A stretch of DNA of 52,134 nucleotides from a virus. This document shows, in pieces, positions 8,812-30,334 of the stretch (positions within the stretch are counted from its first letter, which is position 1; every line of letters starts with the position of its first letter). The notes under the pieces were generated by a model. The model ran no database searches, was not told the DNA's origin, and worked only from the letters and a program-made list of their open reading frames with translations. The translations under genes were made by a program, and so were the position numbers. The stretch is taken from positions 1 to 52,134 of the IMG/VR virus record IMGVR_UViG_3300025652_000110; one strand, written 5' to 3'.

Positions 8812-9514
8812 GATTAAAATCTATGATGGTGTTGTTATTGACATGGCAACAAGCAAGATAGTAGAACAAGGAGATATTAGTTATGTTGACTCTGATCAAG
8901 TTGCATATACGAAAGGTGGTGATAAAACCCAAGTAACAAATACTGGTGTTGCTTCTGAATTTAAACCTCAGATAACGGGAATGCTTAATACTGCCTCAGA
9001 TTTGTATGGATCAGGAAAACTTGGCGCTGTTGCAGGATTCACTCCTGAACAACTAGCGGCCCAACAACAAGCTAAAGTATTAGCCGGCAATCAAATAGGT
9101 TTAGAGGGCGATCTCGCTACTCTAGCAAAGCAACCTGTTAATTTGTCTGGTATGAGAACAGCTGCAACTCAACAAGCACAACAAGCCTTAGGCTTAAATG
9201 CAATGGGCGCAGGTCGAGCTGGTGGTTTAGGTGGATCAAGACAGTACTTAAATCAAACAGGTATTCAAAACGATCTTGCTGCTAAATTTGCCGGCATTGA
9301 CTTGCAGCAACAACAAGCTCAATTTGGTAACATGCAGAATGCATTAGCCGCTCAAGGTGGTGGTGCTAAGACATTGTCACAACTTGGAGCTGCTACACAA
9401 CAGCAAGCTCAGAATGAAGCTGACTCTGCTTATAAAGGTTTACAACAGTACGCTAGTGTATTTGGTACTGCAGCACCTAAAACTACAACAACGACTTCTT
9501 CTGGAGGTAAATAA
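8804..9514 (+). CDS. Internal/ejection virion protein, Gln/Ala-rich
   Basis: 236 aa from ATG 8804, chosen over TTG 8801 because AAGGAG (8791-8796) is 7 nt from the ATG. Residues about 65-225 are dominated by Gln, Ala, Gly and Leu in helical pattern (AATQQAQQALGLNAMGAG and similar), as in the first core/ejection protein of podoviruses (T7 gp14 position). The C terminus is Thr/Ser rich. It is the first of five consecutive ejection-type genes. Confidence 0.6.
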   Translation: MSKIKIYDGVVIDMATSKIVEQGDISYVDSDQVAYTKGGDKTQVTNTGVASEFKPQITGMLNTASDLYGSGKLGAVAGFTPEQLAAQQQAKVLAGNQIGLEGDLATLAKQPVNLSGMRTAATQQAQQALGLNAMGAGRAGGLGGSRQYLNQTGIQNDLAAKFAGIDLQQQQAQFGNMQNALAAQGGGAKTLSQLGAATQQQAQNEADSAYKGLQQYASVFGTAAPKTTTTTSSGGK

Positions 9515-10143
9515 TGGCTGTTAGTTATAATGAAGGAAATTTAGCTTATATGAGACAACTTGCTAAACAACAAGGTATTTCTGTAGCTGAGTTAACTAGA
9601 CGAAGAAGATTAGATGAAGAATTTGGTTCACCTGCTTACATAGCTAAAGAAAAACAAAGTTACCAAGATTTTTTAAAAGCTACTGATGGTTATCAAGATC
9701 ATAAAGAACACATGCAAAGAATAGATACTGGATTAGGAACTTTATATCCAGGCGAAGCAGCAGATAGATATCATGCTTCAAAAGATTTAGGATTAACTGC
9801 TGCACATTTAGGTGAATTTGAACCAGTATTTACTGAGAGTGCAAGTGAAGCTGTTCAACATCAAGATACTAGTCATATTGGAGCTGAGGAAAGAGCGGCT
9901 GGTAGTGCTATTGGTAGTGCTGCTGGTGCTATTTTAGGTGGTATAGTAGGAGGTCCTGTTGGAGCTTCTGCTGGAGCTGCTGCTGGTAAAGCAATAGGCG
10001 GTGGTGGTTCAATGACTGATGCCGCAACAGGAGCAATAGGTAGCGGTGGATCTCAATATGCTACTCAAGCTACTAAGAAGAAACCAGGTGACAAACCTGT
10101 TAAAGACGAAATGATGACTAAAATCCAAGGTGTGTTAAATTAA
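9514..10143 (+). CDS. Ejection protein with glycine-zipper membrane segment
   Basis: 209 aa, ATG overlapping the previous stop (TAATG), with GGAGG as SD. The first 125 residues are charged and helical. Residues about 128-167 form a Gly/Ala-rich zipper (SAIGSAAGAILGGIVGG, then GASAGAAAGKAIGG), the type of segment that inserts into membranes as helical bundles. The tail is basic (TKKKPGDK). It probably sits inside the capsid and helps form the DNA-translocation channel. Confidence 0.6.
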   Translation: MAVSYNEGNLAYMRQLAKQQGISVAELTRRRRLDEEFGSPAYIAKEKQSYQDFLKATDGYQDHKEHMQRIDTGLGTLYPGEAADRYHASKDLGLTAAHLGEFEPVFTESASEAVQHQDTSHIGAEERAAGSAIGSAAGAILGGIVGGPVGASAGAAAGKAIGGGGSMTDAATGAIGSGGSQYATQATKKKPGDKPVKDEMMTKIQGVLN

Positions 10144-10154
10144 AGGAGGCTATT

Positions 10155-12377
10155 ATGCCAGATAAAAAAGGCCAACTAGGTTGGGAAGACTTAGAAGATT
10201 TTGGTAAATCCTTTTTTCAAGGTCATAGTGACTTTATGAATAAAGCGACGACAGATTTTTATGTTGATCCACCTAAAGAAGAAAAGCCATTAACCCCTTA
10301 CGGGCAAAGTCTTGTAGATAATCTATCTGAATTTGATAAACTAAATCCTTTTGATCCAACAGATTTAGGTTTATACACTGGAACCTCTCCAACTTTAGGC
10401 TTAGAGGCATATAATGAAGGTGTAGATTCAATGCTTGATTTAACTTTTGATGAGAACATTGTATCATCAACACCGTTTGATAATGGAATTACAAATACCT
10501 TAGATCCTCGGTATGAAGCACCAGTAACAGGAAGAAACTTTGATGGTCAAGAGTTTACATATGAAGATACTACTGACACATATGAAAGTGGTTTAGTAAT
10601 TCAAAACGCTACTTCTAAAGTAGGTGATGATGAAGATCAATTTCATATTGATGCTATGAATTATAGAGGTGATGACGAAAAAATGTTAGCGCTTCAAAAG
10701 AGTATAGTATCGAGAAAAGAAAATGGTGATGGTACTGTTACTTATAAATTTAATAACAGTCCTGGTTCTCATATGCAGGAAGCTTTAAGCGATGAGGCTG
10801 TACAAGAACAATCATCAATTGCAGCTGGCGTAGCAGCATTAGAGGCTCAAATATTAAGTATTAAGAATGGTACTTCTTTTGCAGCTCCTGGAGAATTGGA
10901 GCAACTAGAAGCTAAATTAACAGAAGAGAAAGCAAAATTAATAGTAGCAGATGAAGAAGTTTTAAAAGAAGAAGAAAATATTATAAAACAAGAAGAAGAT
11001 ATTGCATTGATTCAAGATGGTGAAACTACTGACGCTCAATTTGAAGCTGCTCCTCCTGCTGATCCAAAAGTTGTAGCTGAACAATCAGAAGAGGAAGCAG
11101 AAAAAAGTAACGCAGAAAAAGATAAGCTTGCTAAAGAATTAGCTAAGATAGATCCAAATGGTAAAGTTGACCAACAAATATTACGTAATCAAGTAGAAAA
11201 AGTAGATAAGTTGTTTACTAGCAAGAGTAAATATGATTGGGTAAATAGTATTAGGGCTTTTTATAAAGAAAATCCTGAGATTGCTACAGCTATAATTAAA
11301 GCTGCATCTAATTATTTACAAACAGGTAAATGGTATACCGCTGCTGCAGCTGGTTTAGAAGGTGCATTGCTTGGTGCTGGCACTAAGATAACTATGGATA
11401 ACAAAGATGCTGCTGACAGAGCAACTCTTAGAAACCAAGGTTATACTGGAGCTTCAGTTAATAAGTTCATGGTTACTAAAAATCCAGAAGATCTTGTATT
11501 AGATTTTACTAAACAAGAAAATGATTATGCTATATATCTTAGAAAGAAAGATATTGAAAATAAAATGGCACAATCTAAATCTTATTTAGAATGGTATCGA
11601 AAACTTACTCCAGCTAATACTGAATGGGCAGAAAAACAAACTGATTGGTTTGTTAATAATGCTAAAGGTATGTATGAAAAAATGGGTGAAGATGGAAAAG
11701 CTTTTGCTGAAATGCAATCTGCTGGCATAGAACACGGTGATGTTATGTCAATGATATTAGATTATGCTCATCAAAAGAAAGATGGAAAATATCTATTACC
11801 AAGAGGTCCTAACGGAGAGTACGATTTAAAACAAATACCAACAGAAGTTTTTAGAGATATGCAAAATATTGTTGAAAACTTTTCAAGACAACAATATAGA
11901 AATTATCAGATTAATGGTAAAGTTTTAGATACTAACTTTAACTTTGCTAATTACTATGATGAATATAAACTTCATACTAGTTTAGTTAATAACGATGCTG
12001 ATAATAACTTTGATCCTATTATGTTTCAAAGCTATACTAATAACCCAGAAGACGGTGAGTTTGCTGGTGAAGCAATGATGGCTGGTAGTAGTAATATTGT
12101 TGATCAAATATTTCAAGGTAAATTTGACACAAAAATAGATGGCAAGACTATGAAGCCTGAGAAAGAACAGGTATGGAAACAACTTGCTATTCAATGGGGT
12201 GCTTTGTCTCCAGAAGATAAAGAGGTTTGGAATAAAGCAGCTTTAGAAGAAGATGATATTGCAACAACTGGATTTTTATTTTTTGCAAATCAGTTAATAA
12301 CTGTAGGTGAAGGTCATGAATGGATGGCAAGTCGCAATATAAAATTATTTCAAGATCCAAATAGAGAAAACAAGTAA
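10155..12377 (+). CDS. Large internal virion/ejection protein
   Basis: 740 aa, strong SD (AAAGGAGG). The N-terminal 200 residues are acidic and low in order. A long charged coiled coil spans about 222-345. A hydrophobic stretch lies around 375-410 (IATAIIKAASNYLQ and YTAAAAGLEGALLGAG). The C-terminal 300 residues are alpha-helical. I see no lysozyme or transglycosylase motif. Position between the zipper protein and the nuclease-bearing protein marks it as a middle ejection protein (gp15-like place). Confidence 0.6.
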   Translation: MPDKKGQLGWEDLEDFGKSFFQGHSDFMNKATTDFYVDPPKEEKPLTPYGQSLVDNLSEFDKLNPFDPTDLGLYTGTSPTLGLEAYNEGVDSMLDLTFDENIVSSTPFDNGITNTLDPRYEAPVTGRNFDGQEFTYEDTTDTYESGLVIQNATSKVGDDEDQFHIDAMNYRGDDEKMLALQKSIVSRKENGDGTVTYKFNNSPGSHMQEALSDEAVQEQSSIAAGVAALEAQILSIKNGTSFAAPGELEQLEAKLTEEKAKLIVADEEVLKEEENIIKQEEDIALIQDGETTDAQFEAAPPADPKVVAEQSEEEAEKSNAEKDKLAKELAKIDPNGKVDQQILRNQVEKVDKLFTSKSKYDWVNSIRAFYKENPEIATAIIKAASNYLQTGKWYTAAAAGLEGALLGAGTKITMDNKDAADRATLRNQGYTGASVNKFMVTKNPEDLVLDFTKQENDYAIYLRKKDIENKMAQSKSYLEWYRKLTPANTEWAEKQTDWFVNNAKGMYEKMGEDGKAFAEMQSAGIEHGDVMSMILDYAHQKKDGKYLLPRGPNGEYDLKQIPTEVFRDMQNIVENFSRQQYRNYQINGKVLDTNFNFANYYDEYKLHTSLVNNDADNNFDPIMFQSYTNNPEDGEFAGEAMMAGSSNIVDQIFQGKFDTKIDGKTMKPEKEQVWKQLAIQWGALSPEDKEVWNKAALEEDDIATTGFLFFANQLITVGEGHEWMASRNIKLFQDPNRENK

Positions 12378-12393
12378 TTACTAGGAGAAATTT

Positions 12394-15300
12394 ATGGCTA
12401 TAGGACCTATTAAAATAGTTCTGCCGCAAAGTAAAGCACCTTCATTTGATATGACTGGGTTTGTAAATGCCGGTATGTATCAACAGATGTATGTAGACGA
12501 CGATGAAGAGCCTCGTGATTTTCGTTGGGAAGATGGTGACACTGTTTATGATGCTACTTCAGATGAGGGTTATAGATTCCTTGGTATGGATGCTCTTGAA
12601 ACTGATCACATAGGTCACTCTCCAAAACAAGGATTTAAATCTGGTGAGTATGGTGGTGACCTTCAAAAAAGAAAGTTTTATGAGTTAGCAAAGAAGTTAG
12701 GTTATAACAGACTCGTTAGAACAGGAAAAAAAGATGAACACAATAGATGGTTAACTGACTTGCAAAACGCGAATGGTGAATCATTTTCTACTTCTTTATT
12801 TTCTAACGATCTACTAACACCAAATAGATGGACCTCTGAAAGAGATAGAGATGCTTACGAAAGTAAACACTTCAACAGCTTGATGGGTATTGATACAACA
12901 ACAAATGAATGGGGTAAAGCAAAGTCTGAAATTGACGATCATTTTTCTAAAGGACTTTTGCTTGATAAGTTTGGAAGTCCATACATTAAAAAAGAAGCAT
13001 TAAATGAATGGCAATTAAACGAAGCTCAAATTAATTCTGAAATATATGGAATAGTAAATCCTTATCTTGATAGTTCAGTTAAGTATCGTCATGATGGTAT
13101 GGACCTACAAGGTAATGCTACTAACGTTTGGCGTAGTAGCCTTAGTCAGGGTTGGCAGAGTATGAGTGAAGCAGCTTCAGGAGCTAAGTCTTTAATTGGA
13201 AGTTTAATTGGTAATCAAGACTGGTACGAATCAGGAATGCTTACTGCTGAAGCAAAAGAAAACACAATGCGAAGGCTTCCTAAATTTGTTCAAAATATTG
13301 ATGACGTAGAATTTGGAGACAACGCTGCTGAATATATTATAGGTTTAGGCGGTGTGTCAATACCTTGGATGTTAGGTATCATTGGTGGAGGAGTTGTTGG
13401 TACTTTAGCTGTTGGAGCTGGAGCTACTGGTATTGCTGCTGCAGTTGGAGCTACAATAGGTACTACTCCTTTAGCTGCACTTTATGCTGGTGAAATCTTT
13501 AACAATATGGAAGGAGATATAAATAGCAAAAGCACTAAGGTAGCTTTATCTGGTGGTGTTATTATGTCAGTGTTAGATAGACTAGGTTTAAAAGGTATTA
13601 TGAGACCATCTCAAGTTATGGCAAAAGATGGAATGAAACAATTAAAAGCTCAGTTTACTAAGAAAAAGATTGATGAGATAGAGGCAGATCCAGGTTATGC
13701 TAAGCTTACTCAAGCAGAAAAGACTGCTAGAAAAGCAGAAGCTCTAAAGCAAGTTGACATACAAATCAATGCTGCAAAACTTTCAGGTGTTAATGACATT
13801 GTTAAAGCTATGGCTGGTCATGCTGATATACAAATTAAGAAAAGCTTATTGCTTAAAGAGTTTGGACAAGGCATGATGAAAGGTGGTCTATGGGAAATGG
13901 GAACCGAATCATTACAAGAAAGTACTAGTTATATTGCATCTGCATTTGGATCTGAAGCTGATTTTGATTGGAATGAATTTAAAAATATAGCAAAGAATGC
14001 TGCAGCTGGTGGTTTCTTAATGGGTTCTACAATTGGTGGAACTATGAGTGGCACAAGTGGATATGGATCTATTAAGAAGATGCAATCAGATTATGGCATG
14101 GCAACAAGTGATGCTGCATCTGGATTTTTTAATTATGCTCAAGATAAAGATGGTAATACTTTAGGTAATGCTGTGTCAGCTAATGGTCACGTTTATCCTA
14201 AGCCTATGACTGAAGAACAGTTTAATAATTCTGATCAGCGAGGTAATACTTGGGAACCTAAGTTAGTTGATGTTGAAGAGATTAATGAAGAAATGTTACA
14301 ACACTCTGATGTTAATACTTCAGAAGCACAAAGACAAGTTGATGAACAAGTTAAACTTGGAGAAGGTAAAGGTATTGAAAATGAAGATGGAGTTGTAGTT
14401 GGTAAGCTATCTCTATGGGAGAAGGCAAAGAAACTACCACGCCAAGCTTTCCAGAAGTATGGATCTATTATTGCTACAAAGAACTTGCAAGATCCAGATT
14501 TAAATGGAACTGCTAAGAGATATCTGTCTGCATTACTTCAAACATTTTCTCCTGCTAATATTGGTTTAGCGGCAGGTGTTGGTTTTCAAAAGATTAAAGG
14601 TAGATTAACTGAAGGCTATATGCAAGAAGCTAATAATCTTAAGTTAGCTTTGTTAAATACTGTTGATCATACTAATACAGCAAAAGGTAGAGCTGCTGCA
14701 ACTGAGAAGTTTAAACAGTTTGTAGATAGTAAAAGAGCCGTCCAACGAGGAGAGAAAACCGAGCAACAACATCGTCAACAGTTTGGACAGATGACAGCTA
14801 GGTTAGATCAGATTCATAACAGGATGGAAAGACTTACTGATGCTTTAAGAGATACAGTTAATAATAGTGTTGATGATATGAAAGATATTGGTAGAGTTGA
14901 AGATTGGTTTTTTAATTCTGCTAAACTAGATACATCATTAGTTTTAAAAGGTAAAGGTAGATTTATATCTGCGCTGCAAAGAGATTGGACTAATCCTAGA
15001 ACTGGTCAGGTTCATAAAGGTTTAAGCAAAGAAGCTGCTGAAAAGTTATATAACAGGTTAGTGTTTGATGGTAGAAGTCAAGAAGAAATTATTGATGATA
15101 TGTACCATGAGACTAAAGGAGCTGGTGCTGCAAAACAAAGGACACTAAATATTAATGATAATCCTATGATGCAGGAGTTTTTACACACAGATCATTTTGG
15201 AAAGTTAGAAACTAATATACATGACATGATTAACTATGCTATGGATATGAAATACCTAGGTCGTAATGATGTAAAACTAAATCAGATGATTCTTACTACT

Positions 15301-16803
15301 ATGAACCATATGAAGAAAGATGGTAAGTGGGATGCTAATATAGCAGCGACAGTTAGAAATTCTGTTGATACTCAAAGAGGTAGATACAAAGCTATTAAGA
15401 GTCAAGCACTTAAGAAAGCTCAGGACAATGTAACTTTCTTTAATACACTTACTCAACTAGATACTTCAATGCTAGCGTCACTACCTGAGTTAGCGTTGGT
15501 TATGGTTGGTGCTGCTTATAACAAAGGTTTAATTAATGTTATAAGACAAGGAGCTAGTGATGTTTTTAAACATTATGCTGGAACAGCTAGAACATCTAAG
15601 ATGAGATTCAAAGGCGCTAGTATGACAGATCCTGATTTAAAGGATGTCATGCCTACTCCTAGAATACTTAGACAATTTGATGGTAAGAAAATAGATAGTA
15701 AAAAAGATATTACTATTGAAGATATCAATATGAATAGATTAACCTTCTATGGTGGGCAATACGGAACACCTCATCATGGTGTACTTGGTGCTGTTGATAT
15801 TGATGCATCTGCTTATCAAGCCTCAAGGTTTAAACTATGGGTATTAGAATCATTCTTTCGTATGAATGGTCTTAAGTTCTTAACTGATGGTGCAAGGGTT
15901 GCACGTCTTGCTATAGCTAATGATGCTATTTTTAATGATTTAGAAATAATTCAGGGCTTTTATACTCCTGGAAAACTAAATAGTAATTTAGCTAATGATG
16001 CTTTTGAAAGATTAAGAGAATTAAATATCGATCCTATAAAAGCTGCAAGACAATTTGAAAAAGTAAATCAAGAAATTAAACTACTTCAGCAAAAGAAGAC
16101 TAAAGGTTTTCTTCCTGAAGATGGTGGTAAGTTAGACAGTAAAATCTTGCATGAGTATATATTTAAAAATCATGCTGAGCTTTACAATACTTTAGAAGAT
16201 GCTAGAATATCTTTTGTTGATAATGCGTTAGCAAGACCAACATCGATTGATAGACCTTTATGGTATTCTAATCCTCATTTTAGATTGCTTACTCAATATC
16301 AAGGTTTCTTATCTACGTTTACTGCTCATATAATACCTAAGCTATATAAGAGAGCTAAGAAAGCAGATCCAACACTTAGGTATCAAACTTTTGCTGTTGC
16401 TGCTACAATGTTAGCTCTTGCTTTTCTTGGTCAAGAAGCTAAAGATCAATGGAAGTTTGGTCATCATAGTCCTTATGTTGATACTAATCTTAAGACAGCT
16501 CAGCGAGGATTAAGTGCTTCTGGTTTATTAGGTACTGGACATAGGTTATTAGACTTTGTTCACCCAATATATACTAGTAGTCCAAGATATAATGAGACTG
16601 CGTTTGATCAGATGGGTAGATTTTTTGGTCATTCACTTGATGAGTTTGGTGGACCTACTGGTGGTACAATTAAAAATGCTCAACGCATAGCTGAAAATCT
16701 TATTGAGGGAAAACCTTCAACAGCTATTTATTATGGTAAAAATTGGATACCACTAATTGGTAGACATATGAAAGGTGACAAGCCTTATGAAATAGTATTT
16801 TAA
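12394..16803 (+). CDS. Giant ejection protein with N-terminal SNase-like nuclease domain
   Basis: 1469 aa, good SD. Residues about 43-135 match the staphylococcal-nuclease (thermonuclease) fold: E-D-G-D-T-V at 46-51, then Y-R-F-L-G-M-D-A-L-E-T at 60-70 and D-E-H-N-R-W-L at 114-120. Asp49, Arg61, Asp66, Glu69 and Arg118 correspond to SNase D21, R35, D40, E43 and R87, with the R-x4-D-x2-E spacing exact. Residues about 314-370 are a long hydrophobic Gly/Ala region, probably membrane-inserting. A further hydrophobic helix lies near 1333-1350. The C terminus (PLWYSNPHFRLLTQYQGF onward) has the look of conserved podoviral core proteins. It likely enters the host with the DNA. Confidence 0.75.
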   Translation: MAIGPIKIVLPQSKAPSFDMTGFVNAGMYQQMYVDDDEEPRDFRWEDGDTVYDATSDEGYRFLGMDALETDHIGHSPKQGFKSGEYGGDLQKRKFYELAKKLGYNRLVRTGKKDEHNRWLTDLQNANGESFSTSLFSNDLLTPNRWTSERDRDAYESKHFNSLMGIDTTTNEWGKAKSEIDDHFSKGLLLDKFGSPYIKKEALNEWQLNEAQINSEIYGIVNPYLDSSVKYRHDGMDLQGNATNVWRSSLSQGWQSMSEAASGAKSLIGSLIGNQDWYESGMLTAEAKENTMRRLPKFVQNIDDVEFGDNAAEYIIGLGGVSIPWMLGIIGGGVVGTLAVGAGATGIAAAVGATIGTTPLAALYAGEIFNNMEGDINSKSTKVALSGGVIMSVLDRLGLKGIMRPSQVMAKDGMKQLKAQFTKKKIDEIEADPGYAKLTQAEKTARKAEALKQVDIQINAAKLSGVNDIVKAMAGHADIQIKKSLLLKEFGQGMMKGGLWEMGTESLQESTSYIASAFGSEADFDWNEFKNIAKNAAAGGFLMGSTIGGTMSGTSGYGSIKKMQSDYGMATSDAASGFFNYAQDKDGNTLGNAVSANGHVYPKPMTEEQFNNSDQRGNTWEPKLVDVEEINEEMLQHSDVNTSEAQRQVDEQVKLGEGKGIENEDGVVVGKLSLWEKAKKLPRQAFQKYGSIIATKNLQDPDLNGTAKRYLSALLQTFSPANIGLAAGVGFQKIKGRLTEGYMQEANNLKLALLNTVDHTNTAKGRAAATEKFKQFVDSKRAVQRGEKTEQQHRQQFGQMTARLDQIHNRMERLTDALRDTVNNSVDDMKDIGRVEDWFFNSAKLDTSLVLKGKGRFISALQRDWTNPRTGQVHKGLSKEAAEKLYNRLVFDGRSQEEIIDDMYHETKGAGAAKQRTLNINDNPMMQEFLHTDHFGKLETNIHDMINYAMDMKYLGRNDVKLNQMILTTMNHMKKDGKWDANIAATVRNSVDTQRGRYKAIKSQALKKAQDNVTFFNTLTQLDTSMLASLPELALVMVGAAYNKGLINVIRQGASDVFKHYAGTARTSKMRFKGASMTDPDLKDVMPTPRILRQFDGKKIDSKKDITIEDINMNRLTFYGGQYGTPHHGVLGAVDIDASAYQASRFKLWVLESFFRMNGLKFLTDGARVARLAIANDAIFNDLEIIQGFYTPGKLNSNLANDAFERLRELNIDPIKAARQFEKVNQEIKLLQQKKTKGFLPEDGGKLDSKILHEYIFKNHAELYNTLEDARISFVDNALARPTSIDRPLWYSNPHFRLLTQYQGFLSTFTAHIIPKLYKRAKKADPTLRYQTFAVAATMLALAFLGQEAKDQWKFGHHSPYVDTNLKTAQRGLSASGLLGTGHRLLDFVHPIYTSSPRYNETAFDQMGRFFGHSLDEFGGPTGGTIKNAQRIAENLIEGKPSTAIYYGKNWIPLIGRHMKGDKPYEIVF

Positions 16804-16817
16804 TATAGGAGATATGT

Positions 16818-19800
16818 ATGGCTAAGAGTGGTGGTTACAAAAGCTCAGCTAACACAAAGAAAGATTTAAAGAAAGCTCAATTTGATATGTCAGGTGTATT
16901 TTTTGAAGCGCCTACTGTCAGAGAACAATCTAATATTGTAAGAAAACAACAAGCTTATGGTCAGAATCTAGACCAAAAGAGTGAAATGGAAATGCAGATA
17001 GCTCAAAAAGAAGCTGAGGTTGCTGGATTACAAAGAGCTCAACAAGGTCAAAACGTTTCAAGTGAAGATCAATTAAGAGGTCGTAAGTCTAGACTTGAGT
17101 TGCAAATGCTCAATCAAAATTATAATAAACTTAATGAAGGTTTATTAGATGATGTATATGGAGGAACCCAAGACACTGTTGGTGAAATGGGTTCTCCAAT
17201 TGTCGATAATACAGTTGAACCTGTACCTACAATTACACCTCAAAGAGAGTTCCCTACTCCTGAACAGGCTGTAGGAACCACGACAACGCCCGAGATCAGA
17301 CCTTTAGGCACAGGCCCTGCTGCTACTATTGGTGGTGGAGATACTAACGTATCAAGTGCTGCAATAATAAATGCCATAATGAACAAGCCAGAAGAGGATA
17401 GAACTCCTGCTGAATGGCAAGTGCTTGCTGATCTTGCTCCTGAAGTTTATGATAGTAATCAAGCAGCTGATCGTGAGACTGTTGATGATGATCCAGATAG
17501 TCCAGACAGACCAGGAAAAATTAGTAAAGTTCAAATACCTTATCAACAAAAAATGCAATTGATGCATGACAGTCATGCGATGGGTAGAAGAGTTGAAGAA
17601 CTCTTAGATCAATTTGCTTATGATGATATGGGTAGTGCAGAAAGAAGGCAAGAGATGATGAGACGTATCAATGATGGTACGTTTGAAGTAGAATCTGTTG
17701 CTGATTTCTTTGAAGGTATATTAGCTACTCATGAGGAATTAAAAAGATTAGGTGCACCTAGTGCTTTATCTGATGTTGCTTTACATTCTGTCTTACACCA
17801 AGTAAGAGAGGCTTATAAAAGAATAGGAGAACCTGACGATAGAAGAGGTAGACAACAAGCAATTGATGAATCTAATATAGCACCTACAACAGAAGAAGAA
17901 GCTGCAACAGCTCTTGTTATGCGAGGGCATGAGGTTCGTGAAATAGGTAATAAGATATTAGAAGCAATGGGAGTTAAGCCTGATGCTAATAATGTTAACT
18001 CTACTATAGCTGGAACAATAGCTAGAGACCTAGTTGTCAGAGCATTTCCTAATTTGTTTGTGAAAGATCTTAAAGGTAATATTCAAATATCACAAGACGG
18101 TTTGACAGTAGCAGAAAAAATGTTACCAATGACTCAAACAATTTTGCCACATACAAAAAACAATGTTAGGTTAAATAAAAAACCTAATGCAAGTAGTACT
18201 GTTAAACCTAGATCAGGAGCTAAGTTAAGACGAACTGCTACTGGAGCTGCTACTGATATTGACTATGGAAACTATGATTTAGTAAATGATACAATAGATA
18301 TTCTTGATAATATAGGATATACAATTGATCAAGATATGGTTAACATTGTTAATGCTTTAACCCAATCAATGGATGCTAATGGAAATACTAACATTGACAA
18401 ACTTATTGGTACAGGAAAAGAAGACACTGGTACATTAAATGATAGATCTGGATCTCGTAAAAAGAAAGATCCTAAAACTGGCAGAGATATTATAGGTCCT
18501 GACGGAGAACCAGTAATGGAATGGTATGCTGGAGATCGAATCAAAGATGTTATCTTTAACGACAATATGGATTGGGCTCAAAATCTAGGTAATAATGTTT
18601 TTTATTACGATCATTTTTTAGGCGATAACAATAGATTTTATATATCTCAATTCACTGGTAACTATCACAGTCATAAGCTTGTTAGAGCTATGATTATGAG
18701 TGATCGTATTGAAATGTTTAGTGTTGATAATGAAGCTTCATTAAACGAACTCAAAGCTGGTATTGTTAAAAAGTTTGGACATAATGTTGGGGTTGCTGAA
18801 GCAGCAAGAATATTTGATGCTAATGCTAAAGCATGGTCTGATATGATTATGAAAGTCAGAGAAGACGGTCAACCTATAATTGATTTAGCTGCAAAAGAAG
18901 ATGGATGGGATAGTGTAAGTGCTATGGTTGAAGCAACAAAACTTCATCAACACTTAGAAGGTTTAAAGAACGGTACAAAGACTGATCCAATATACACAAC
19001 TAAGTTTATGACTCATGTTGATGGAACAGGAAATGGACTTGCTCATAATGCTATGCAATCCGGTGATTTTAAAACAGCTGCTTTAACTAATATCAATCCA
19101 AGATTTAATGCACCTGAAGGTGAAGCTAGAATGCATTGGGATTCAGCTAATCCTTTGAACAGTGATGTGTACCATCTTACTGGTTCGGGTATGACAGCTC
19201 AAGTTGAGAAGAATCAAAGTGCATCATCTGCATTTGTTAAGCAAGCTATTGTTGCTTTAGGTCTTGATGATAAAAGAAACATGAGACAATTTTCTAAAGC
19301 TCCACTAATGATATTTCAGTATGGAGCAGGTAGAGCGCTTATTAAAAAGATTGTTAAAGAAAATATATTAATAGCGCTTGAAGAAGATGCTGCTACAGCT
19401 GCTGCATTTAATCAAATTGTTCTTGATATGGGAGGTAATGCTTTAAGTCAGAGTGAAATTAAACAAGCTATTAAAGATGGAGTGTTTGAGGATTCTGGTC
19501 AATTCAGAGACGCAGACTTTATTATCGACCAAATGGGAGATATGATGGTTAAGTCTGTTGAGACTCAATTTCCTATGCTTAAGAAATTAAGTAACATATT
19601 ATCTTCTATGGCTAATGCTGCTGCATTACATAATCCACCTATTGATTTATCAGTTATTACTATTGGTGGTCATAGGTTAAATTTTGGTTTGGCTAATTGG
19701 GAAACAGATAGACTTAGATCTTTTATAGATGAGACAAGTGGTTTAGATTTTAGTCCTGCTCAAAAGATATTGTATCCTCAAGGTACAAAAGTCTATATGA

Positions 19801-20438
19801 AAAATAAGGCTACAGGTAAAAACATTTCTGTTAAAAATACTAGCGGACATTTAATGCCTAATCCTAATTTCAATCCTGAGTTTCCAGTACATGATATAAA
19901 AAATCCTAAGTATGTACCTCTTGGTAGTCTTAAATCTGCAACACAAGCTGCAGTACTTATGACTCACTCATTAGACGGTATCAATGTTGCTCGATCTTTA
20001 GGTGCTTGGAATCAGGACAAACGTCATATGAGTATAGCTCAAATCTTTGATGGATTTTTAGTAAGCCCTAAGCACGCTCGTGAGTTTGCTGCAAGGTTAA
20101 ATAAAGACTTTTTAGATATACACCTTGATAAAGGCGGTAGATTTAGAACTACTGGAGACTTCATGAAAGATTTAACTGATGTTGAAAAATTTCAACCAGG
20201 TCAATCTCATTATGATTTCTTATCTAACAATCCTGCTAATAGTAATGTTCTATTAATATATAGAGCAATGGCTCAAAAAGGTTTTAATTGGGATGACTAT
20301 AAAGGCAAAGGTCTTATCAAGTTAATCAAAGAGTTTGAGGCAGATAGAAAGAAATTTAGAAAACAATTTATGATAGACTTCAAGAAAACTGATTCTGAAT
20401 ACAATTATAAAGCTGTTAAACAATTCTTTTGGGATTAA
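16818..20438 (+). CDS. Probable virion-associated single-subunit RNA polymerase (N4 vRNAP-like)
   Basis: 1206 aa, good SD, last gene of the ejection cluster. The N-terminal 300 residues are low complexity. The region from about 580 to 1100 carries the T7-family RNA polymerase signatures in order: a D-N-N-R-F-Y element (R606; T7 D-x-x-G-R region), motif A V-D-G-T-G-N-G-L-A-H (D735, G740, H743; T7 D537, G542, H545), motif B R823-x3-K827-x7-Y835-G836 (T7 R627, K631, Y639, G640), an H-S-L-D-G element (1050-1054; T7 H-S-Q-D-G) and motif C I-F-D-G-F (D1078; T7 D812). T7 has His before that Asp; here it is Phe1077. Total size is close to the minimal polymerase domain of N4 vRNAP. Packaging is inferred from gene position and from an N-terminal F-D-M-S-G tag shared with the preceding ejection protein. 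Confidence 0.78.
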   Translation: MAKSGGYKSSANTKKDLKKAQFDMSGVFFEAPTVREQSNIVRKQQAYGQNLDQKSEMEMQIAQKEAEVAGLQRAQQGQNVSSEDQLRGRKSRLELQMLNQNYNKLNEGLLDDVYGGTQDTVGEMGSPIVDNTVEPVPTITPQREFPTPEQAVGTTTTPEIRPLGTGPAATIGGGDTNVSSAAIINAIMNKPEEDRTPAEWQVLADLAPEVYDSNQAADRETVDDDPDSPDRPGKISKVQIPYQQKMQLMHDSHAMGRRVEELLDQFAYDDMGSAERRQEMMRRINDGTFEVESVADFFEGILATHEELKRLGAPSALSDVALHSVLHQVREAYKRIGEPDDRRGRQQAIDESNIAPTTEEEAATALVMRGHEVREIGNKILEAMGVKPDANNVNSTIAGTIARDLVVRAFPNLFVKDLKGNIQISQDGLTVAEKMLPMTQTILPHTKNNVRLNKKPNASSTVKPRSGAKLRRTATGAATDIDYGNYDLVNDTIDILDNIGYTIDQDMVNIVNALTQSMDANGNTNIDKLIGTGKEDTGTLNDRSGSRKKKDPKTGRDIIGPDGEPVMEWYAGDRIKDVIFNDNMDWAQNLGNNVFYYDHFLGDNNRFYISQFTGNYHSHKLVRAMIMSDRIEMFSVDNEASLNELKAGIVKKFGHNVGVAEAARIFDANAKAWSDMIMKVREDGQPIIDLAAKEDGWDSVSAMVEATKLHQHLEGLKNGTKTDPIYTTKFMTHVDGTGNGLAHNAMQSGDFKTAALTNINPRFNAPEGEARMHWDSANPLNSDVYHLTGSGMTAQVEKNQSASSAFVKQAIVALGLDDKRNMRQFSKAPLMIFQYGAGRALIKKIVKENILIALEEDAATAAAFNQIVLDMGGNALSQSEIKQAIKDGVFEDSGQFRDADFIIDQMGDMMVKSVETQFPMLKKLSNILSSMANAAALHNPPIDLSVITIGGHRLNFGLANWETDRLRSFIDETSGLDFSPAQKILYPQGTKVYMKNKATGKNISVKNTSGHLMPNPNFNPEFPVHDIKNPKYVPLGSLKSATQAAVLMTHSLDGINVARSLGAWNQDKRHMSIAQIFDGFLVSPKHAREFAARLNKDFLDIHLDKGGRFRTTGDFMKDLTDVEKFQPGQSHYDFLSNNPANSNVLLIYRAMAQKGFNWDDYKGKGLIKLIKEFEADRKKFRKQFMIDFKKTDSEYNYKAVKQFFWD

Positions 20439-22765: not shown

Positions 22766-24547
22766 TTACCCCTCGCATGCTAAACATTCATCTTCAGCTG
22801 CATCGCCAATAGCTATTCTATCTACTTGTTGGCCGACATTTTCTGCTACTTGTGTACTAGATGTACGTAGATAATATAATGTTTTTAGTTTCTTGTTAAA
22901 TGCACTTATGTGCACACTGTTTACGTATGATTTATCAGATCCAGCTGGGAAGAATAAGTTTACACTCTGTGATTGACATATATATACTTGTCTATCACTT
23001 GCATGTTGAACTACCCAGTGCTGATCTAACTCAAACGCTGTTTTGAATACATCTTTTTCCCAATCAGTTAAGTAATCTAGTTGTTGTACAGATCCTTGAT
23101 GGTGACCGATGTTGCGCCACTCAGCTTCTAACCAATCTAAATCTTTACCTAGTCTTAACCTATGTTCTTCCATTACCTCTTGCAGGTGTTTGTTTCTAAT
23201 AAGATGCGATCCAACTCTTGTTTTATGAATAAAACTATTTGATTTAATAGGCTCTATCGATGGTGAGGTTCCAATTATCATTCCGCTATTTGCATTTGGC
23301 GCTATAGCTAATAGATGACTGTTCCTTTTACCTGTTCCTCTGCCATACATATATTCACTTTTAGTTTTACATAAATCTTTAGTAGCTTTTAATGCATGCT
23401 GCTTTATATAAGCAAACATCATTTTGTTTTGACCGACTGCCATAGCAGATTCCCATGGTATACTTTTTGATTGTAAGTATGAATGAAAACCCATAGCACC
23501 TAGTCCTAAAGATCTTTCAGTAAGAGCTGATGATGTAGCCTTAAATAAAGCTGGCTGCGGAGCGTGATCAATGAACTGAGTTAGTACATTGTCTAGCATT
23601 TCTATAAGATCTTCTACTATTGTAGAGTCTTTCCACTCATCAAACTTTTCCAAGTTTAGACTACTTAAGCAGCATACTGCTGTTCGATCAGAGTTTGTTG
23701 GTAATGTTATCTCAGCACAGAGGTTACTACCTTTTATTTCTAATCCCTTTTTCTTAAGAGGTTCAGGCAATTTTCTATTGCTCTCATCGATGAAGTGAAT
23801 ATACGGCTCACCTGTCCTAAACCTAGTCTCCAATATCCTTTCCCATAACTCACGTGCGCGTACTGTATCACGGACTGAGCCGTCATGAGGATCGATAAGA
23901 TCCCAATCACTATCACTTGAAACACTATCCATAAAATTATCAGTAATATTGACAGCATTATTAATATTAAAACACTTACGATTTGAATCACCACCTGAGG
24001 GAATCCTGATATTAAGGAACTCAATGATGTCCGGATGGCTGATATCCAAGTATGCTGCATAACTTCCCTTTCTTGTTTGTCCTTGTTTGTAAGCAGTCAT
24101 TGCTGAGTCTGCTACTTTAATAAATGGTATTGGTGATGGAGCTTTATCACTAACAGCTCTAACATCTGACCAATGACCGCCAACTCCTCCACCTTTCACT
24201 GATAGCCATGCTAACTCTGATTGGTGGTCTATAAGACCTTCTAGCGTATCAGGAACGTAATTTAAAAAGCAACTGATAGGTAGACCAAGGGGTGTTTCAC
24301 CTGGCATAGGGGCATTACTTAATATTGGGCTGCTAAACATAAACCAACTGTTACTTACCCCGTCATACAATCTTTGAGCTAGTTTTTTGTTACCATTAGA
24401 ATAGGCAATACAAGCTCTAGCATAAGCTTCTTGTGGTGACTTTTCTTTACCTCTAAGGTAGTGAGCTTTCAATAAATCAAAAGCTTGATCTGTCATTTGC
24501 TTATCTTTAGCTCTATCTATTTGTATTCCTAAATAATTACTCTTCAT
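22766..24547 (-). CDS. nrdA: Class Ia ribonucleotide reductase large subunit
   Basis: 593 aa, ATG overlapping the upstream stop (ATGA). Catalytic alpha subunit. Visible family elements are P-I-S-C-F-L-N near residue 90, the glycine-rich G-G-G-V-G-G-H-W segment, N-L-C-A-E-I-T-L-P (active-site Asn/Cys/Glu), A-P-N-A-N-S-G and the C-terminal redox Cys pair E-C-L-A-C-E-G that accepts electrons from a thioredoxin or glutaredoxin. At 593 aa it is much shorter than E. coli NrdA (761 aa) and lacks the N-terminal ATP cone, so dATP inhibition is probably absent, as in many phage enzymes. No thioredoxin gene is visible, so host reductant is likely used. Confidence 0.95.
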   Translation of the reverse strand: MKSNYLGIQIDRAKDKQMTDQAFDLLKAHYLRGKEKSPQEAYARACIAYSNGNKKLAQRLYDGVSNSWFMFSSPILSNAPMPGETPLGLPISCFLNYVPDTLEGLIDHQSELAWLSVKGGGVGGHWSDVRAVSDKAPSPIPFIKVADSAMTAYKQGQTRKGSYAAYLDISHPDIIEFLNIRIPSGGDSNRKCFNINNAVNITDNFMDSVSSDSDWDLIDPHDGSVRDTVRARELWERILETRFRTGEPYIHFIDESNRKLPEPLKKKGLEIKGSNLCAEITLPTNSDRTAVCCLSSLNLEKFDEWKDSTIVEDLIEMLDNVLTQFIDHAPQPALFKATSSALTERSLGLGAMGFHSYLQSKSIPWESAMAVGQNKMMFAYIKQHALKATKDLCKTKSEYMYGRGTGKRNSHLLAIAPNANSGMIIGTSPSIEPIKSNSFIHKTRVGSHLIRNKHLQEVMEEHRLRLGKDLDWLEAEWRNIGHHQGSVQQLDYLTDWEKDVFKTAFELDQHWVVQHASDRQVYICQSQSVNLFFPAGSDKSYVNSVHISAFNKKLKTLYYLRTSSTQVAENVGQQVDRIAIGDAAEDECLACEG

Positions 24548-24750
24548 TTCTTCTCCTTATTAACGATGACCTCTATTGTTTGATCTCCATCATCATCTTT
24601 ATAAACTTTATACTGTATCTTTTTCTTAGCATGTTCAGCTAGTGCATAACATACTCCTTCTTCAAACGACATTTGTTTTTCTTTACGCATCCACATATAA
24701 ATAAATATGCATGTACCTATTGAAGCTAATAGTATTTCATGTAATTCCAT
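24544..24750 (-). CDS. Hypothetical membrane-anchored protein
   Basis: 68 aa, SD AAGGAGA. One N-terminal TM (about 5-21, EILLASIGTCIFIYMWM), then a charged helix and a Lys/Asp-rich strand region. Coupled to nrdA by an ATGA overlap. No family recognised. Confidence 0.55.
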   Translation of the reverse strand: MELHEILLASIGTCIFIYMWMRKEKQMSFEEGVCYALAEHAKKKIQYKVYKDDDGDQTIEVIVNKEKK

Positions 24751-24761
24751 TTTATTTCTCC

Positions 24762-24941
24762 TTAATGTATTTTATTATCATTTTCTAGGTCTAAAGTTAG
24801 ATACTCAAACCCTAGTTCTTTTAATTCTTCACATGTTTGCAACCAAGCCACGCATTCCATTAATACTATCTCACTATCAGTATTATCTATTACTGTTTTG
24901 ATCTTACTTTTGACATCATTAACGTGTATTTGGCTGCTCAT
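24762..24941 (-). CDS. Hypothetical small protein
   Basis: 59 aa from ATG 24941, chosen because GGAG lies about 6 nt upstream. The ATG 12 nt further up lacks a good SD. Acidic, helical. It begins inside the end of the RusA-like gene. Function unknown. Confidence 0.5.
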   Translation of the reverse strand: MSSQIHVNDVKSKIKTVIDNTDSEIVLMECVAWLQTCEELKELGFEYLTLDLENDNKIH

Positions 24942-25323
24942 ATTTCTCTCCATCTATTTCTAATATAACATAATCTTCTTTATCTTCGTCATATCCTCCA
25001 AAATGAGATGAAAAACCGGTTACTATTTCGTTGTTATCATCTTCAATAGATCCATGTTCAACCATAGCATCCATTAAAAACTTGTGCAACGCCCATGTAA
25101 AGTTATCTATATCTCGCTTTCTTTTAGTTGCGAAATATAAAGTATAGTGTATCGTTAGTTTATTGTATTTAGGCAGAGACTCCACGAAGTTTTTTACTTC
25201 TTCGTGGTAATCTTTTTTTGCCTTAGCAAGTGTAGCCCAGTGTAAGTTTCTGTACAAGTTTCCTGTCAGTATTCCAGCTTTACCTTTCTTTACGTACAAT
25301 GGGAAGTTAAGTCTTGCTATCAA
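24919..25323 (-). CDS. RusA-like Holliday-junction resolvase
   Basis: 134 aa. RusA-family endodeoxyribonuclease that cuts four-way DNA junctions, here to process replication or recombination intermediates before packaging. The acidic metal-binding cluster is visible: K-R-D-I-D-N-F (Asp71, Asp73), L-M-D-A-M (Asp85) and I-E-D-D-N-N-E-I (Asp95/96). It starts with TTG overlapping the exonuclease stop (TTGA) with GGAG 7 nt upstream; no ATG is available before residue 80. Length is typical (about 120-140 aa). Works with the adjacent exonuclease and helicase. Confidence 0.8.
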   Translation of the reverse strand: MIARLNFPLYVKKGKAGILTGNLYRNLHWATLAKAKKDYHEEVKNFVESLPKYNKLTIHYTLYFATKRKRDIDNFTWALHKFLMDAMVEHGSIEDDNNEIVTGFSSHFGGYDEDKEDYVILEIDGEKYEQPNTR

Positions 25324-26165
25324 TCTCTTGCTCCGATCTTAGTAATTGTCCAACGATCTTTTTCTTCATTGTGTCTAACCCTAACACCAGAACCTTGATG
25401 AGATTGACCTTCACATAGTTCTATTAATTGTTTCTTAATAGTTTCCATGCGTCCTTCTTGCAATAGCTTTTCGTCTCTAGCTTCTTTCCAAAAGTATGCT
25501 AACTCTTTCCATTGCTCATCTTCACGTTTAAGTATATCATTTGGACCTGGTTCCGGTTTACCTTTAAAGTATTCTTTCCAGGCATTTAATATTTCTTCAC
25601 GTAATTCAGGGTTTGACTCATGGACTCTATTGTAACCAACCTTGTTATGTCTGTCATATACCCAAAAGTTACAATGATCTTGGCCAGATAGTAACATTTG
25701 CTGTTCCATTTGTATTTCGTATTGATGCGGCAATGAATCTCCGTTAACCTGTGTCTGCCACAATGGTGATTCAGATCCGTTTAATGGGACTTTAATCTCC
25801 ACTATTGCTGGTTTTCCAGAGTTTGACCATGTTTCTTTACCATCTAATGAAGCCATCAATGGCAGTCCATCGATCTCACCAACTATGCAGCATGGCTCGA
25901 ATACTCCTCCCATTTCATTTTGAAATGCTTCTCTAGCCTCATCTTCGAACTCATTACCGATTGTCATAGCAAAGTTTTTCTTTACTTCTAACTCACCGTT
26001 TTTAAGCTCCCATAATTGTAATGGTGTTTTAGGAATCCACGGACTAACGCCCATAGCTGAAGCAGCTTCTGAAGCTGTTCCGTATTTTCTTCTAGTTTCT
26101 AACCATAGATCACTACCTTGAGGCAATAAAGTATCGTCATATTCTATTCTATTTACTACTTGCAT
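25320..26165 (-). CDS. YqaJ/lambda-exonuclease-family recombination nuclease
   Basis: 281 aa. A 5'-3' exonuclease of the PD-(D/E)XK fold. An early helix with R-R-K-Y-G-T-A-S-E-A (about 25-34) and G-V-S-P-W fit the family start. Glu73 and Glu76 (G-N-E-F-E-D-E-A), Asp108 (A-S-L-D-G) and E-I-K at 123-125 form the catalytic set. SD AAGGAGT. With the ssDNA-binding protein and resolvase it makes a recombination/end-processing module, probably used to build concatemers. No Bet/Erf/RecT annealing protein is recognised unless the DUF2815-like protein at 27808 fills that role. Confidence 0.85.
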   Translation of the reverse strand: MQVVNRIEYDDTLLPQGSDLWLETRRKYGTASEAASAMGVSPWIPKTPLQLWELKNGELEVKKNFAMTIGNEFEDEAREAFQNEMGGVFEPCCIVGEIDGLPLMASLDGKETWSNSGKPAIVEIKVPLNGSESPLWQTQVNGDSLPHQYEIQMEQQMLLSGQDHCNFWVYDRHNKVGYNRVHESNPELREEILNAWKEYFKGKPEPGPNDILKREDEQWKELAYFWKEARDEKLLQEGRMETIKKQLIELCEGQSHQGSGVRVRHNEEKDRWTITKIGARD

Positions 26166-26179
26166 ATTATTACTCCTTT

Positions 26180-27673
26180 TTATTTTCTACGTTTAGCCCA
26201 TTTTATCTGAAGATGCTTAATGTAACTCATCGTCTCTTTGTTAGGCTTTTCTGCAACGGCATCTTTAAATTGAGGAAAACTATCAAACCGTTCTTTATAT
26301 TTATAATTTGCCCAGTTATCGCTGTAACCTTTGATTACAGTATAACCGAGTAATTGTTGATAGAATTCTCTTTTAAAGTTTTCACCGTATCTCTCTTTTC
26401 TTTCAACTTTCTTAGTCTTTTTATTAACTAGACCTAGCTCAGCATCTATAAATTCTACGTAAGAGCTTTTACTCTTATGAATCTTACCACATCCTGGACA
26501 TATATTGCTGCCGCTGAATGTTCTAAAACAACCTTCACATATTAATGTTGACTCTTCTCGTTCTGCAGGTTCAGTTCTTTCATTTTCTTTTGCTTTACCT
26601 GATGTTAGTATCCAGTTATGATCGTCTGTTGCAAATCCGTTAGTGTATACAGCGCCAGAATGATCTATTATTATTGCTTTATCTTTAGTTGGATGAGGTC
26701 TTAACACTCTTCCAACCATCTGAATGTACAATCCTAATGATCTTGTTGGTCTTGCTAGTACACAAACTTGTGCTTTTGGTGCATCAAATCCTTCAGTTAG
26801 CACCATACAGTTACATATTACTGTTACTTTACCTGTGTCGAAGTCTTTTAATATTTGTACTCTTTCTTTTGTTGGTGTCTGTCCGTCTAAATGAGCTGCA
26901 GATACACCAGAATCTATAAATGTTTCACATAAATTCTTACTGTGTTTAACACTTGAGGCAAATACTAATGTTTGTTTACCATTTCCTATGTGTTTCCATG
27001 TTCTAACTACATCACCGACAAGTTTTGGTAGGTTCATTCGTCCGCTTAACTCTTTTGCGTTGTAATCACCTGCAATTAATCCTATACCTTTAAGATCTGG
27101 TATACTTGGTGAATAATAAACAGCTTCGATTAAACTACCTAGTCTTGTTAGCTCTTTAATTCCAGGAGCTTTAACCATATGTGAGTAAATAGATCCTAAT
27201 CCTACACCGTCAGATCTTATTGGCGTAGCTGTTAAGCCTACAATTAAGCTTTTACTGTATAGATTTATAAGTTTAATATAAGTATTACTTAATGATCTGT
27301 GAGCTTCATCGATGATAATTAAATCAGCAATTGGTAGATCCATTTTGTTTTTTGTTATTGCTCGTGCTCTTAGAGTATCAATAGATGCAACTTGTACTGT
27401 TGCGAATGAGTTTTCTTTTTTATGATTAGCCATAATAACTCCGTGTCTTACTTCGAAGTCATTTAATTTGTCTGATGTTTGTATGATTAGTTCTCGTCTA
27501 TGAGCTAAGAATAATACTTTTCTGCCTTTTTCTACAAAAGCTTTTACTAATGCTGCAGCCATTACTGTTTTTCCAGAACCTGTTGCAGCTTGTAATATTA
27601 TTCTACGATTACCTTGTCTTTCTACTTTAACTAGATCATTTAAAACATCTTTTTGATATTGTCTTAACTTCAT
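26180..27673 (-). CDS. RadD-like SF2 DNA helicase with C-terminal zinc finger
   Basis: 497 aa from ATG 27673, coupled by ATGA to the tiny gene upstream; GTG 27691 is an alternative. Superfamily 2 motifs: A-A-T-G-S-G-K-T (Walker A, about residue 33), I-I-D-E-A-H (Walker B), G-L-T-A-T, and Q-M-V-G-R-V-L-R (motif VI). A C-terminal zinc ribbon is formed by C-E-G-C and C-P-G-C. This architecture matches RadD/YejH-type repair helicases. It could unwind branched DNA during phage recombination. It is not a DnaB-type replicative helicase. Confidence 0.85.
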   Translation of the reverse strand: MKLRQYQKDVLNDLVKVERQGNRRIILQAATGSGKTVMAAALVKAFVEKGRKVLFLAHRRELIIQTSDKLNDFEVRHGVIMANHKKENSFATVQVASIDTLRARAITKNKMDLPIADLIIIDEAHRSLSNTYIKLINLYSKSLIVGLTATPIRSDGVGLGSIYSHMVKAPGIKELTRLGSLIEAVYYSPSIPDLKGIGLIAGDYNAKELSGRMNLPKLVGDVVRTWKHIGNGKQTLVFASSVKHSKNLCETFIDSGVSAAHLDGQTPTKERVQILKDFDTGKVTVICNCMVLTEGFDAPKAQVCVLARPTRSLGLYIQMVGRVLRPHPTKDKAIIIDHSGAVYTNGFATDDHNWILTSGKAKENERTEPAEREESTLICEGCFRTFSGSNICPGCGKIHKSKSSYVEFIDAELGLVNKKTKKVERKERYGENFKREFYQQLLGYTVIKGYSDNWANYKYKERFDSFPQFKDAVAEKPNKETMSYIKHLQIKWAKRRK

Positions 27674-27741
27674 GGTCTGTCTTTGTACCACTCAAATAGT
27701 ATACTCAATAGAAACCCCGTTATTAATATTATTTTTATCAT
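27670..27741 (-). CDS. 23-aa membrane peptide coupled to helicase
   Basis: ATG at 27741 with GGAG 5 nt upstream. One hydrophobic helix (IKIILITGFLLSILF), then E-W-Y-K-D-R-P. The stop overlaps the helicase ATG as ATGA. Probably expressed; may serve only for coupling. Confidence 0.45.
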   Translation of the reverse strand: MIKIILITGFLLSILFEWYKDRP

Positions 27742-27807
27742 TATTACTCCTTATTATTAACATTTATCGAGGACACTGCGAACAATGCCCTCTGTAAATA
27801 TTAAGTC

Positions 27808-28299
27808 CTAAAACGTAATATCGTCATCGCCTTCAGTTATAGCATCAAGCGATTTTTCTTCTTTAGCAGAAAAGCTAAACTCTACACTATCACCTGAAGA
27901 TCCAGTGTATTCATTTAACTCTAGTACTTGCACAGCTATTAACTCTGCTGACTTACCTTTCTGCCCTTGGAATTCCCAATCACGGACTGAGTACTGTACA
28001 TTACATACAGAATCATTACCGATAATTAGTGGATCCATTGAGTCACCAAACTTATCAACAACCATTGGTGGCTTTTTAGGATCACCAGAATTACGCCATA
28101 CGCAGTCTTTCTTAAGTTTAATGAACGTTTGCCCATCTTTATCCTTAACTGCTGGTTTAACTCCAGAATCCCTCCAGGTTTTAGCTTGCTCAGGAGACAA
28201 TAAACAGTCTACTGACCATTCTTTATCTTCTGACATATACTTAGTACCTGCGTTGTCGCCTAATTTAGGCCATACTACTTTAGTGTTTTCTAATATCAC
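27808..28299 (-). CDS. Phage ssDNA-binding protein (DUF2815/gp2.5-like) with SSB-type tail
   Basis: 163 aa, GTG start at 28299 with AGGAG 7-8 nt upstream. The N terminus (ENTKVVWPKL) and the overall strand pattern match OB-fold phage ssDNA-binding proteins of the DUF2815 type. The last six residues are D-D-D-I-T-F after an acidic stretch, nearly the bacterial SSB C-terminal tip (D-D-D-I-P-F) through which SSB recruits primase, exonucleases and helicases. It sits directly upstream of the helicase/exonuclease/resolvase group, so it probably coats ssDNA and recruits these or host proteins. Confidence 0.75.
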   Translation of the reverse strand: MILENTKVVWPKLGDNAGTKYMSEDKEWSVDCLLSPEQAKTWRDSGVKPAVKDKDGQTFIKLKKDCVWRNSGDPKKPPMVVDKFGDSMDPLIIGNDSVCNVQYSVRDWEFQGQKGKSAELIAVQVLELNEYTGSSGDSVEFSFSAKEEKSLDAITEGDDDITF

Positions 28300-28303
28300 T
28301 TTT

Positions 28304-28627
28304 TTACTCCTTTATTGATTGATTAAACATATTTTTATCACTATTTTGACCTGGTATATCACCGTCCATGTAAGCTACAAAGAACGTTGCGTAATTTATC
28401 AGGTCCACACAAGAGTCTTGTATCGACTCAAAGTTTTCACTGTCACGACTTTCCATTTGTTCCATGACAGATTTAATTCTTAGCATTTTTGCCCACATAA
28501 TGTCATATATGGTAGCTATACCACGTGGATAATAATCAGCCATTTGGACTGATGATTCACCTGTATAGTCTTGTGCTTTTTGTTCCATTATCATTTGACA
28601 ATGGACTAATGTATCTTGCGGCGTCAT
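28304..28627 (-). CDS. DUF1599-like nucleotide-modification-associated protein
   Basis: 107 aa, SD GGAGT. Features of the DUF1599 (nucleotide modification associated domain 1) family: K-A-Q-D-Y near the start, I-M-W-A-K-M-L-R-I-K-S-V in the middle and D-L-I-N-Y-A-T-F-F at about 75-83. Members are small helical proteins often encoded with base-modification enzymes in phages. Here the next gene upstream is the thymidylate-synthase-fold enzyme and the one before that MazG. Biochemical role unknown. Confidence 0.65.
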   Translation of the reverse strand: MTPQDTLVHCQMIMEQKAQDYTGESSVQMADYYPRGIATIYDIMWAKMLRIKSVMEQMESRDSENFESIQDSCVDLINYATFFVAYMDGDIPGQNSDKNMFNQSIKE

Positions 28628-28641
28628 TTTATTACTCCTTA

Positions 28642-29379: not shown

Positions 29380-29391
29380 TATAGCTCCTTA

Positions 29392-29781: not shown

Positions 29782-29785
29782 ATTA

Positions 29786-30277: not shown

Positions 30278-30313
30278 AGCATCTCCTTTTCATAATAATA
30301 TTATATCCGCCGA

Positions 30314-30334
30314 CTCTATAAGGGAGTGGTCGAA
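30314..30334 (-). promoter_or_regulatory. Candidate promoter for the T7-type phage RNA polymerase (leftward copy)
   Basis: On the - strand this 21-bp site reads TTCGACCACTCCCTTATAG then AG. It begins directly after the polymerase stop codon. An exact copy lies on the + strand at 40421-40441. The T-A-T-A-G near the 3' end with about 17 conserved bases before it fits the -17 to +3 layout of T7-family promoters, and T7 also has promoters just downstream of its RNA polymerase gene. It would drive the genes from 30277 leftward. Confidence 0.55.

Follow-up and report, generated by a model that had tools for sequence, protein, structure and literature searches.

The plus-strand open reading frame at positions 16818-20438 of the window (the whole stretch of DNA analysed, an IMG/VR virus record of 52,134 bases from an uncultivated phage) opens with an ATG codon and encodes a compact, putatively virion-type protein of 1206 amino acids resembling single-subunit RNA polymerases. 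We propose, with a probability of about 0.75, that this protein is expressed late along with the ejection proteins, enters the virion and then the host, and there acts as an active single-subunit DNA-dependent RNA polymerase on the early genes. The computational basis of the proposal encompasses polymerase homology, catalytic residues, a predicted fold, gene position, the absence of cysteine and conservation in two phages, and from these we infer late expression, packaging, injection, early transcription and hand-over.

Sequence comparison lends good support to the identity of the protein as a polymerase. Its score against the Pfam RNA_pol model (31.2 bits, E=1.4e-7) exceeds the cut-off of 22, and it matches the PHROG RNA polymerase family phrog_414 (E=8e-12); it is not listed under phrog_2206, the PHROG virion RNA polymerase (vRNAP) family that recognises N4. 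Genes matching RNA_pol number two in the whole record and none in 14 control genomes. The sole close relative found is a protein of 1215 amino acids in record IMGVR_UViG_3300007515_000008 (hereafter the relative phage), with 59% identity over the full length, every motif kept and a Pfam RNA_pol score likewise above the cut-off (32.1 bits). Most of the 63.8-kb relative phage runs collinear with the window. When the two-sequence family formed by these orthologs was compared by hhalign with nine Schitoviridae vRNAPs, the match reached a probability of 96.3 and a score of 87.7 over 835 columns, against 25.9 for the best of 20 column-shuffled controls and 18.4 for the reversed control. The agreement of Pfam, PHROG and shuffle-controlled hhalign results bears out the sequence-only reading of this gene, which had claimed a single-subunit RNA polymerase from its motifs. 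Searches for further relatives by tblastn and degenerate-pattern scans gave one viral contig and none in genome contigs, tblastn against 50,697 phage records returned no match at 1e-5, and sequence searches of the PDB produced no relevant match.

The hhalign match to the N4 mini-vRNAP begins at about residue 231 and then proceeds nearly end to end, delimiting a collinear polymerase region (residues 225-1206; 17490-20435, plus strand). The N-terminal extension (residues 1-224; 16818-17489, plus strand) does not align to the N4 mini-vRNAP and is poorly conserved, presenting 24-52% identity to the ortholog of the relative phage in most 50-residue blocks. Because the match covers the N4 mini-vRNAP nearly end to end, the protein resembles, at the sequence level, a natural mini-vRNAP made up of a polymerase region and a short N-terminal extension.

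A multiple sequence alignment with MAFFT placed R606, D735, R823, K827, Y835, H1050 and D1078 in the same columns as the catalytic residues of T7 and N4. The motif residues and positions named beforehand were all recovered on the plus strand: motif A, D735-G-T-G-N-G-L-A-H743 (19020-19046), which conforms to D735-G-x3-G740-x2-H743 and whose catalytic D735 aligns with N4 D559 and T7 D537; motif B, R823-x3-K827-x7-Y835-G836 (19284-19325), aligned with N4 R666/K670/Y678 and T7 R627/K631/Y639; H1050-S-L-D-G (19965-19979), aligned as the equivalent of T7 H784-S-Q-D-G; and motif C, I-F-D1078-G-F (20043-20057), whose catalytic D1078 aligns with N4 D951 and T7 D812. In addition, R606 (18633-18635, plus strand) is the equivalent of the Arg in the D/TxxGR element of T7 and N4, and constitutes one of ten invariant columns (R606, R623, D735, G736, G740, D783, Y785, K827, Y835 and D1078) in a 59-row alignment of the protein, its ortholog in the relative phage, 56 N4-type vRNAPs from IMG/VR and the phage's own T7-like enzyme. 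The near-T7 spacing that had been claimed holds between motifs A and B (88 versus 90 residues) and between H1050 and D1078 (28 in both), but the interval from motif B to motif C is about 70 residues longer. Phe1077 had been interpreted as a divergence from the T7 motif C histidine; phenylalanine is instead the majority residue at this position in N4-family vRNAPs (54 of the 59 aligned rows), and N4 itself presents IFDG.

Motif A departs from the N4 pattern in one respect. Glutamate occupies the position of residue 733 in 57 of the 59 rows, and the ortholog in the relative phage reads E-I-D, whereas the window protein presents H733-V-D735 and thus lacks the Glu-x-Asp mark of N4-type vRNAPs (N4 E557-x-D559). 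Because H733 replaces N4 E557, a residue that helps place the initiating nucleotide (PMC4496689) and that the ortholog keeps, initiation may differ. The DGxxNG element of motif A was also considered as an N4-specific mark and rejected, since the phage's own T7-like enzyme carries it. Overall, the conserved residues support the catalytic competence of the 1206-residue protein.

Structure prediction yielded a palm/fingers fold for the core, as anticipated for a polymerase of this kind, with a pTM of 0.62, a mean pLDDT of 61 and values of 70-97 in most of the palm and fingers, in a model that is partly circular because the 59-row alignment from which AlphaFold built it contains vRNAPs. Motif C lies in a predicted beta hairpin of this model. 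With a two-row alignment of its own family, AlphaFold produced no usable fold for residues 225-1206 (pLDDT 31). All 50 PDB hits listed by a fold search are mitochondrial, T7 or N4 polymerases. The top three hits among viral proteins come from Vibrio phages, and two of these proteins bear the name virion-encapsulated RNA polymerase.

A maximum-likelihood tree of the core recovered three well-supported groups, namely the nine vRNAPs (99/98), nine T7-like RNAPs (100/99) and the pair formed by the window protein and its ortholog (100/100, on a long branch of its own), in an unrooted topology that does not assign the pair as sister of either vRNAPs or T7-like enzymes. On this sequence evidence, the 1206-residue protein is a third deep branch, outside both the N4 vRNAP clade and the T7-like clade. 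This placement corrects the sequence-only reading, and the protein is about a third the size of its N4 counterpart. Membership in the N4 vRNAP clade was rejected because a T7 profile of equal depth scores equally: the hhalign probabilities that suggested it, 96% for vRNAPs versus 16% for T7, came from a three-sequence T7 profile, and profiles of nine sequences each give 96.3 for both groups.

The protein can be compared with both of these groups. Like N4 gp50 and the N4 mini-vRNAP of the Schitoviridae, it has aligned catalytic residues, an IFDG motif C and no cysteine, and like N4 gp50 it is encoded by the final late gene, which follows those for virion proteins and runs convergently towards the replication genes. 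Schitoviridae vRNAPs, however, span 2842-3820 amino acids (PMC10654107), and their giant N- and C-terminal domains are absent from the 1206-residue protein. These flanking domains were not found in the genes neighbouring the polymerase, and the notion that they had been split into the 740- or 1469-residue neighbour was discarded, as neither shows similarity to them. With T7-like (Autographiviridae-type) RNAPs the protein shares the fold and the catalytic motifs, and its H1050-S-L-D-G is nearer to the T7 than to the N4 form. T7-like RNAPs differ in forming their own clade, in presenting HD[SD] at motif C in most cases (F1077-D1078 here), in containing 7-15 cysteines and in being encoded with early/replication genes.

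The late genes of this phage are located on the plus strand, from 41.6 kb to the end of the record and then from 1 to 20.4 kb, and face, in convergent orientation, a minus-strand replication/early block at 20.5-41 kb. The polymerase gene is the final late gene and closes a presumed ejection cluster, in which it is preceded on the plus strand by genes encoding two small proteins of 237 (8801-9514) and 209 (9514-10143) amino acids and two larger presumed ejection proteins of 740 (10155-12377) and 1469 (12394-16803) amino acids. The 237- and 740-residue proteins were assigned to the cluster by position and composition, the former having no family match in Pfam or PHROG; the 209-residue protein was assigned by composition and weak matches to tail/tape-measure families; and the 1469-residue protein matches the virion structural protein family phrog_6958 (3e-15) and is homologous along its whole length to gp34 of Roseobacter phage CRP-7 (hhalign probability 99.2). 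The sequence-only reading had deemed the phage not N4-like in layout. This applies to the remaining genome, but the local layout is N4-like: the final late gene is convergent with the replication genes, and the portal (43597-45792, plus strand) maps to phrog_1216, as does the N4 portal gp59. The major head proteins map to different PHROGs, 1328 in this phage and 1357 in N4.

The replication/early block also encodes an ordinary T7-like RNA polymerase of 811 amino acids with 14 cysteines (30335-32770, minus strand; Pfam RNA_pol 8e-69, phrog_414 1e-106), in which Y-D-A-G replaces the usual Y-G after motif B, a substitution common to the relative phage. A search with PF00476 found no family A DNA polymerase in this record or in the relative phage; despite the missing PF00476 match, there is a helicase, a primase, an exonuclease and a ribonucleotide reductase, and CRP-7 has a family A DNA polymerase.

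Phage N4 carries a giant RNA polymerase packaged inside its particles. In the mechanism proposed here, the 1206-residue polymerase would be produced late alongside the ejection proteins, incorporated into the virion and delivered to the host as the first DNA enters, where it would work like the N4 vRNAP, while separate ejection proteins would provide envelope passage. It would then transcribe the early genes before any phage protein exists, including the block encoding the T7-like polymerase, and the latter, once made, would take over transcription. A precedent for the association with ejection proteins is phage DEV, whose vRNAP is an ejection protein encoded on one message with gp72 and gp73 (PMC10925440).

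With regard to the earlier claim of a packaged vRNAP, the polymerase component is thus well supported, and the virion-type component is supported by inference from three features: the position in the ejection cluster, the absence of cysteine and the N4-type motif C, FDG being the majority form among vRNAPs. Cysteine is absent not only from the 1206-residue protein but also from its four upstream neighbours, that is, from five consecutive genes (8801 to 20438), and from the orthologs of the 740-, 1469- and 1206-residue proteins in the relative phage. The N4 vRNAP likewise contains no cysteine in 3501 residues, and 74 of 80 vRNAP fragments lack it. Gp22 of phage HMO-2011 occupies a similar genomic place and is cysteine-free with no polymerase signal, which suggests that the absence of cysteine marks a class of virion proteins, and not polymerases as such.

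The same features bear on the possibility that an active polymerase is made late and used late in the cell, for instance for late genes or replication, without being packaged, its position in the cluster being accidental. Polymerase identity is indeed independent of packaging, and the phage's own T7-like enzyme shows that it uses cytoplasmic polymerases. Cysteine, however, accounts for about 1.6% of residues in the metabolic and replication enzymes of this genome, so that about 19 would be expected in 1206 residues, where none is found, and nine full-length T7-like RNAPs, including that of this phage, contain 7-15. Moreover, the gene holds the same position in N4 and in the relative phage. We consequently regard late use in the cytoplasm as unlikely.

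N4-like promoters, short hairpins with 3-base loops that are repeated in early regions, were also sought. No repeated hairpin motif was detected in the window and none was shared with the relative phage; a hairpin at 41052-41066 was rejected as an N4-style promoter, since it is single, falls within an ORF and is not a shared feature. Promoters of a different kind could serve this lineage. The absence of recognised promoters, together with the presence of H733 in place of the Glu found in N4 (E557, PMC4496689) and the proposal that the DEV vRNAP is part of a genome-ejection motor (PMC10925440), would also fit a former virion RNA polymerase whose principal role has become that of an ejection protein, a structural protein or a DNA-translocating motor, and which transcribes little or not at all. 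This appears decidedly improbable, given that the catalytic aspartates and the Arg, Lys and Tyr of motif B are kept in two phages whose proteins are 59% identical. Lastly, a chance occurrence of the motifs in a large helical ejection protein that is not a polymerase, although compatible with the empty tblastn search and the failed two-sequence structure prediction, is largely refuted by the concordance of the Pfam, PHROG and shuffle-controlled hhalign results with the fold search and the ten invariant columns, and by the lack of such a signal in comparable cysteine-free ejection proteins (the 1469-residue protein, CRP-7 gp34 and gp35, and HMO-2011 gp22).

Several wholly or mostly non-coding stretches are conserved with the relative phage. 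The plus-strand region at 41455-41580, which precedes an ORF at 41598, is non-coding and strongly conserved, and is predicted to form a multi-branched RNA whose closing stem runs into a T run (z -2.7), with no match in Rfam; it is possibly a structured leader, a terminator or a packaging signal. Two further stretches, at about 40430-40530 and 40812-40972, are mostly non-coding and also conserved, the first of them carrying the inverted repeat TTGGGCA/TGCCCAA.

A candidate second case of a compact virion-type polymerase was found in CRP-7. Gp33 of this phage (23979-27686, 1235 amino acids) is annotated as hypothetical and lies next to gp34, in the position of the polymerase. CRP-7 thus parallels the window in encoding, after the homolog of the 1469-residue protein, a cysteine-free protein of similar length, and in having its own T7-like RNAP. 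Gp33 contains the elements K-x3-R-x7-YG and IHDA, which are kept in all nine of its IMG/VR relatives, and MAFFT lines up its motifs with those of other polymerases. Against a combined polymerase profile, hhalign assigned it a score of 38.5, versus at most 22.9 for shuffled controls, with a probability of 19.8. It is recognised by neither Pfam nor PHROGs, and hhalign detected no similarity between it and the 1206-residue protein. On this suggestive evidence, we consider gp33 a likely, possibly very divergent second case. In the published description of CRP-7, the T7-like ORF30 is the one protein named as a polymerase (PMC6918029).

Other candidates did not yield such evidence. HMO-2011 gp22 and CRP-6 were discarded as further carriers, as no polymerase signal was detected. 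ORF30 of Pseudoalteromonas phage vB_PunP_Y3 (proposed Poorviridae) was described in the literature as being a virion-encapsulated RNA polymerase (PMC11654794) and resembles the present case in being a claimed N4-type virion polymerase from a phage outside the Schitoviridae and in lacking cysteine, but it comprises 3421 amino acids (24147-34412), as opposed to 1206. Our analysis found no polymerase motif or profile score in Y3 ORF30, and it was hence rejected as a compact or related case; its label may be mistaken, or its match may derive from a different region of the protein.

The virion RNA polymerase has been described as a giant that is confined to the N4 family and comprises about 3400 residues (PMC10925440), and related proteins shorter than 2500 amino acids were removed in a survey of N4-like viruses (PMC10654107). 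Tentatively, and with less than even confidence, we suggest that the packaging of single-subunit RNA polymerases by short-tailed phages is an older and wider trait, in which two or more compact lineages of about 1200 amino acids outside the Schitoviridae, the present one and CRP-7 gp33 among them, end the ejection cluster, and that the giant N4 form arose later by fusion of polymerase and ejection domains. The possible counterpart in CRP-7 belongs to a cultured marine phage, which makes this wider idea testable. A compact virion-type polymerase on a separate deep branch, in a phage that also encodes a T7-like one, would indicate that the strategy is broader than the N4 family, to which the packaging of an RNA polymerase would then not be unique, and would provide a natural minimal version of it, allowing one to ask which parts of these proteins serve packaging, envelope passage and transcription.
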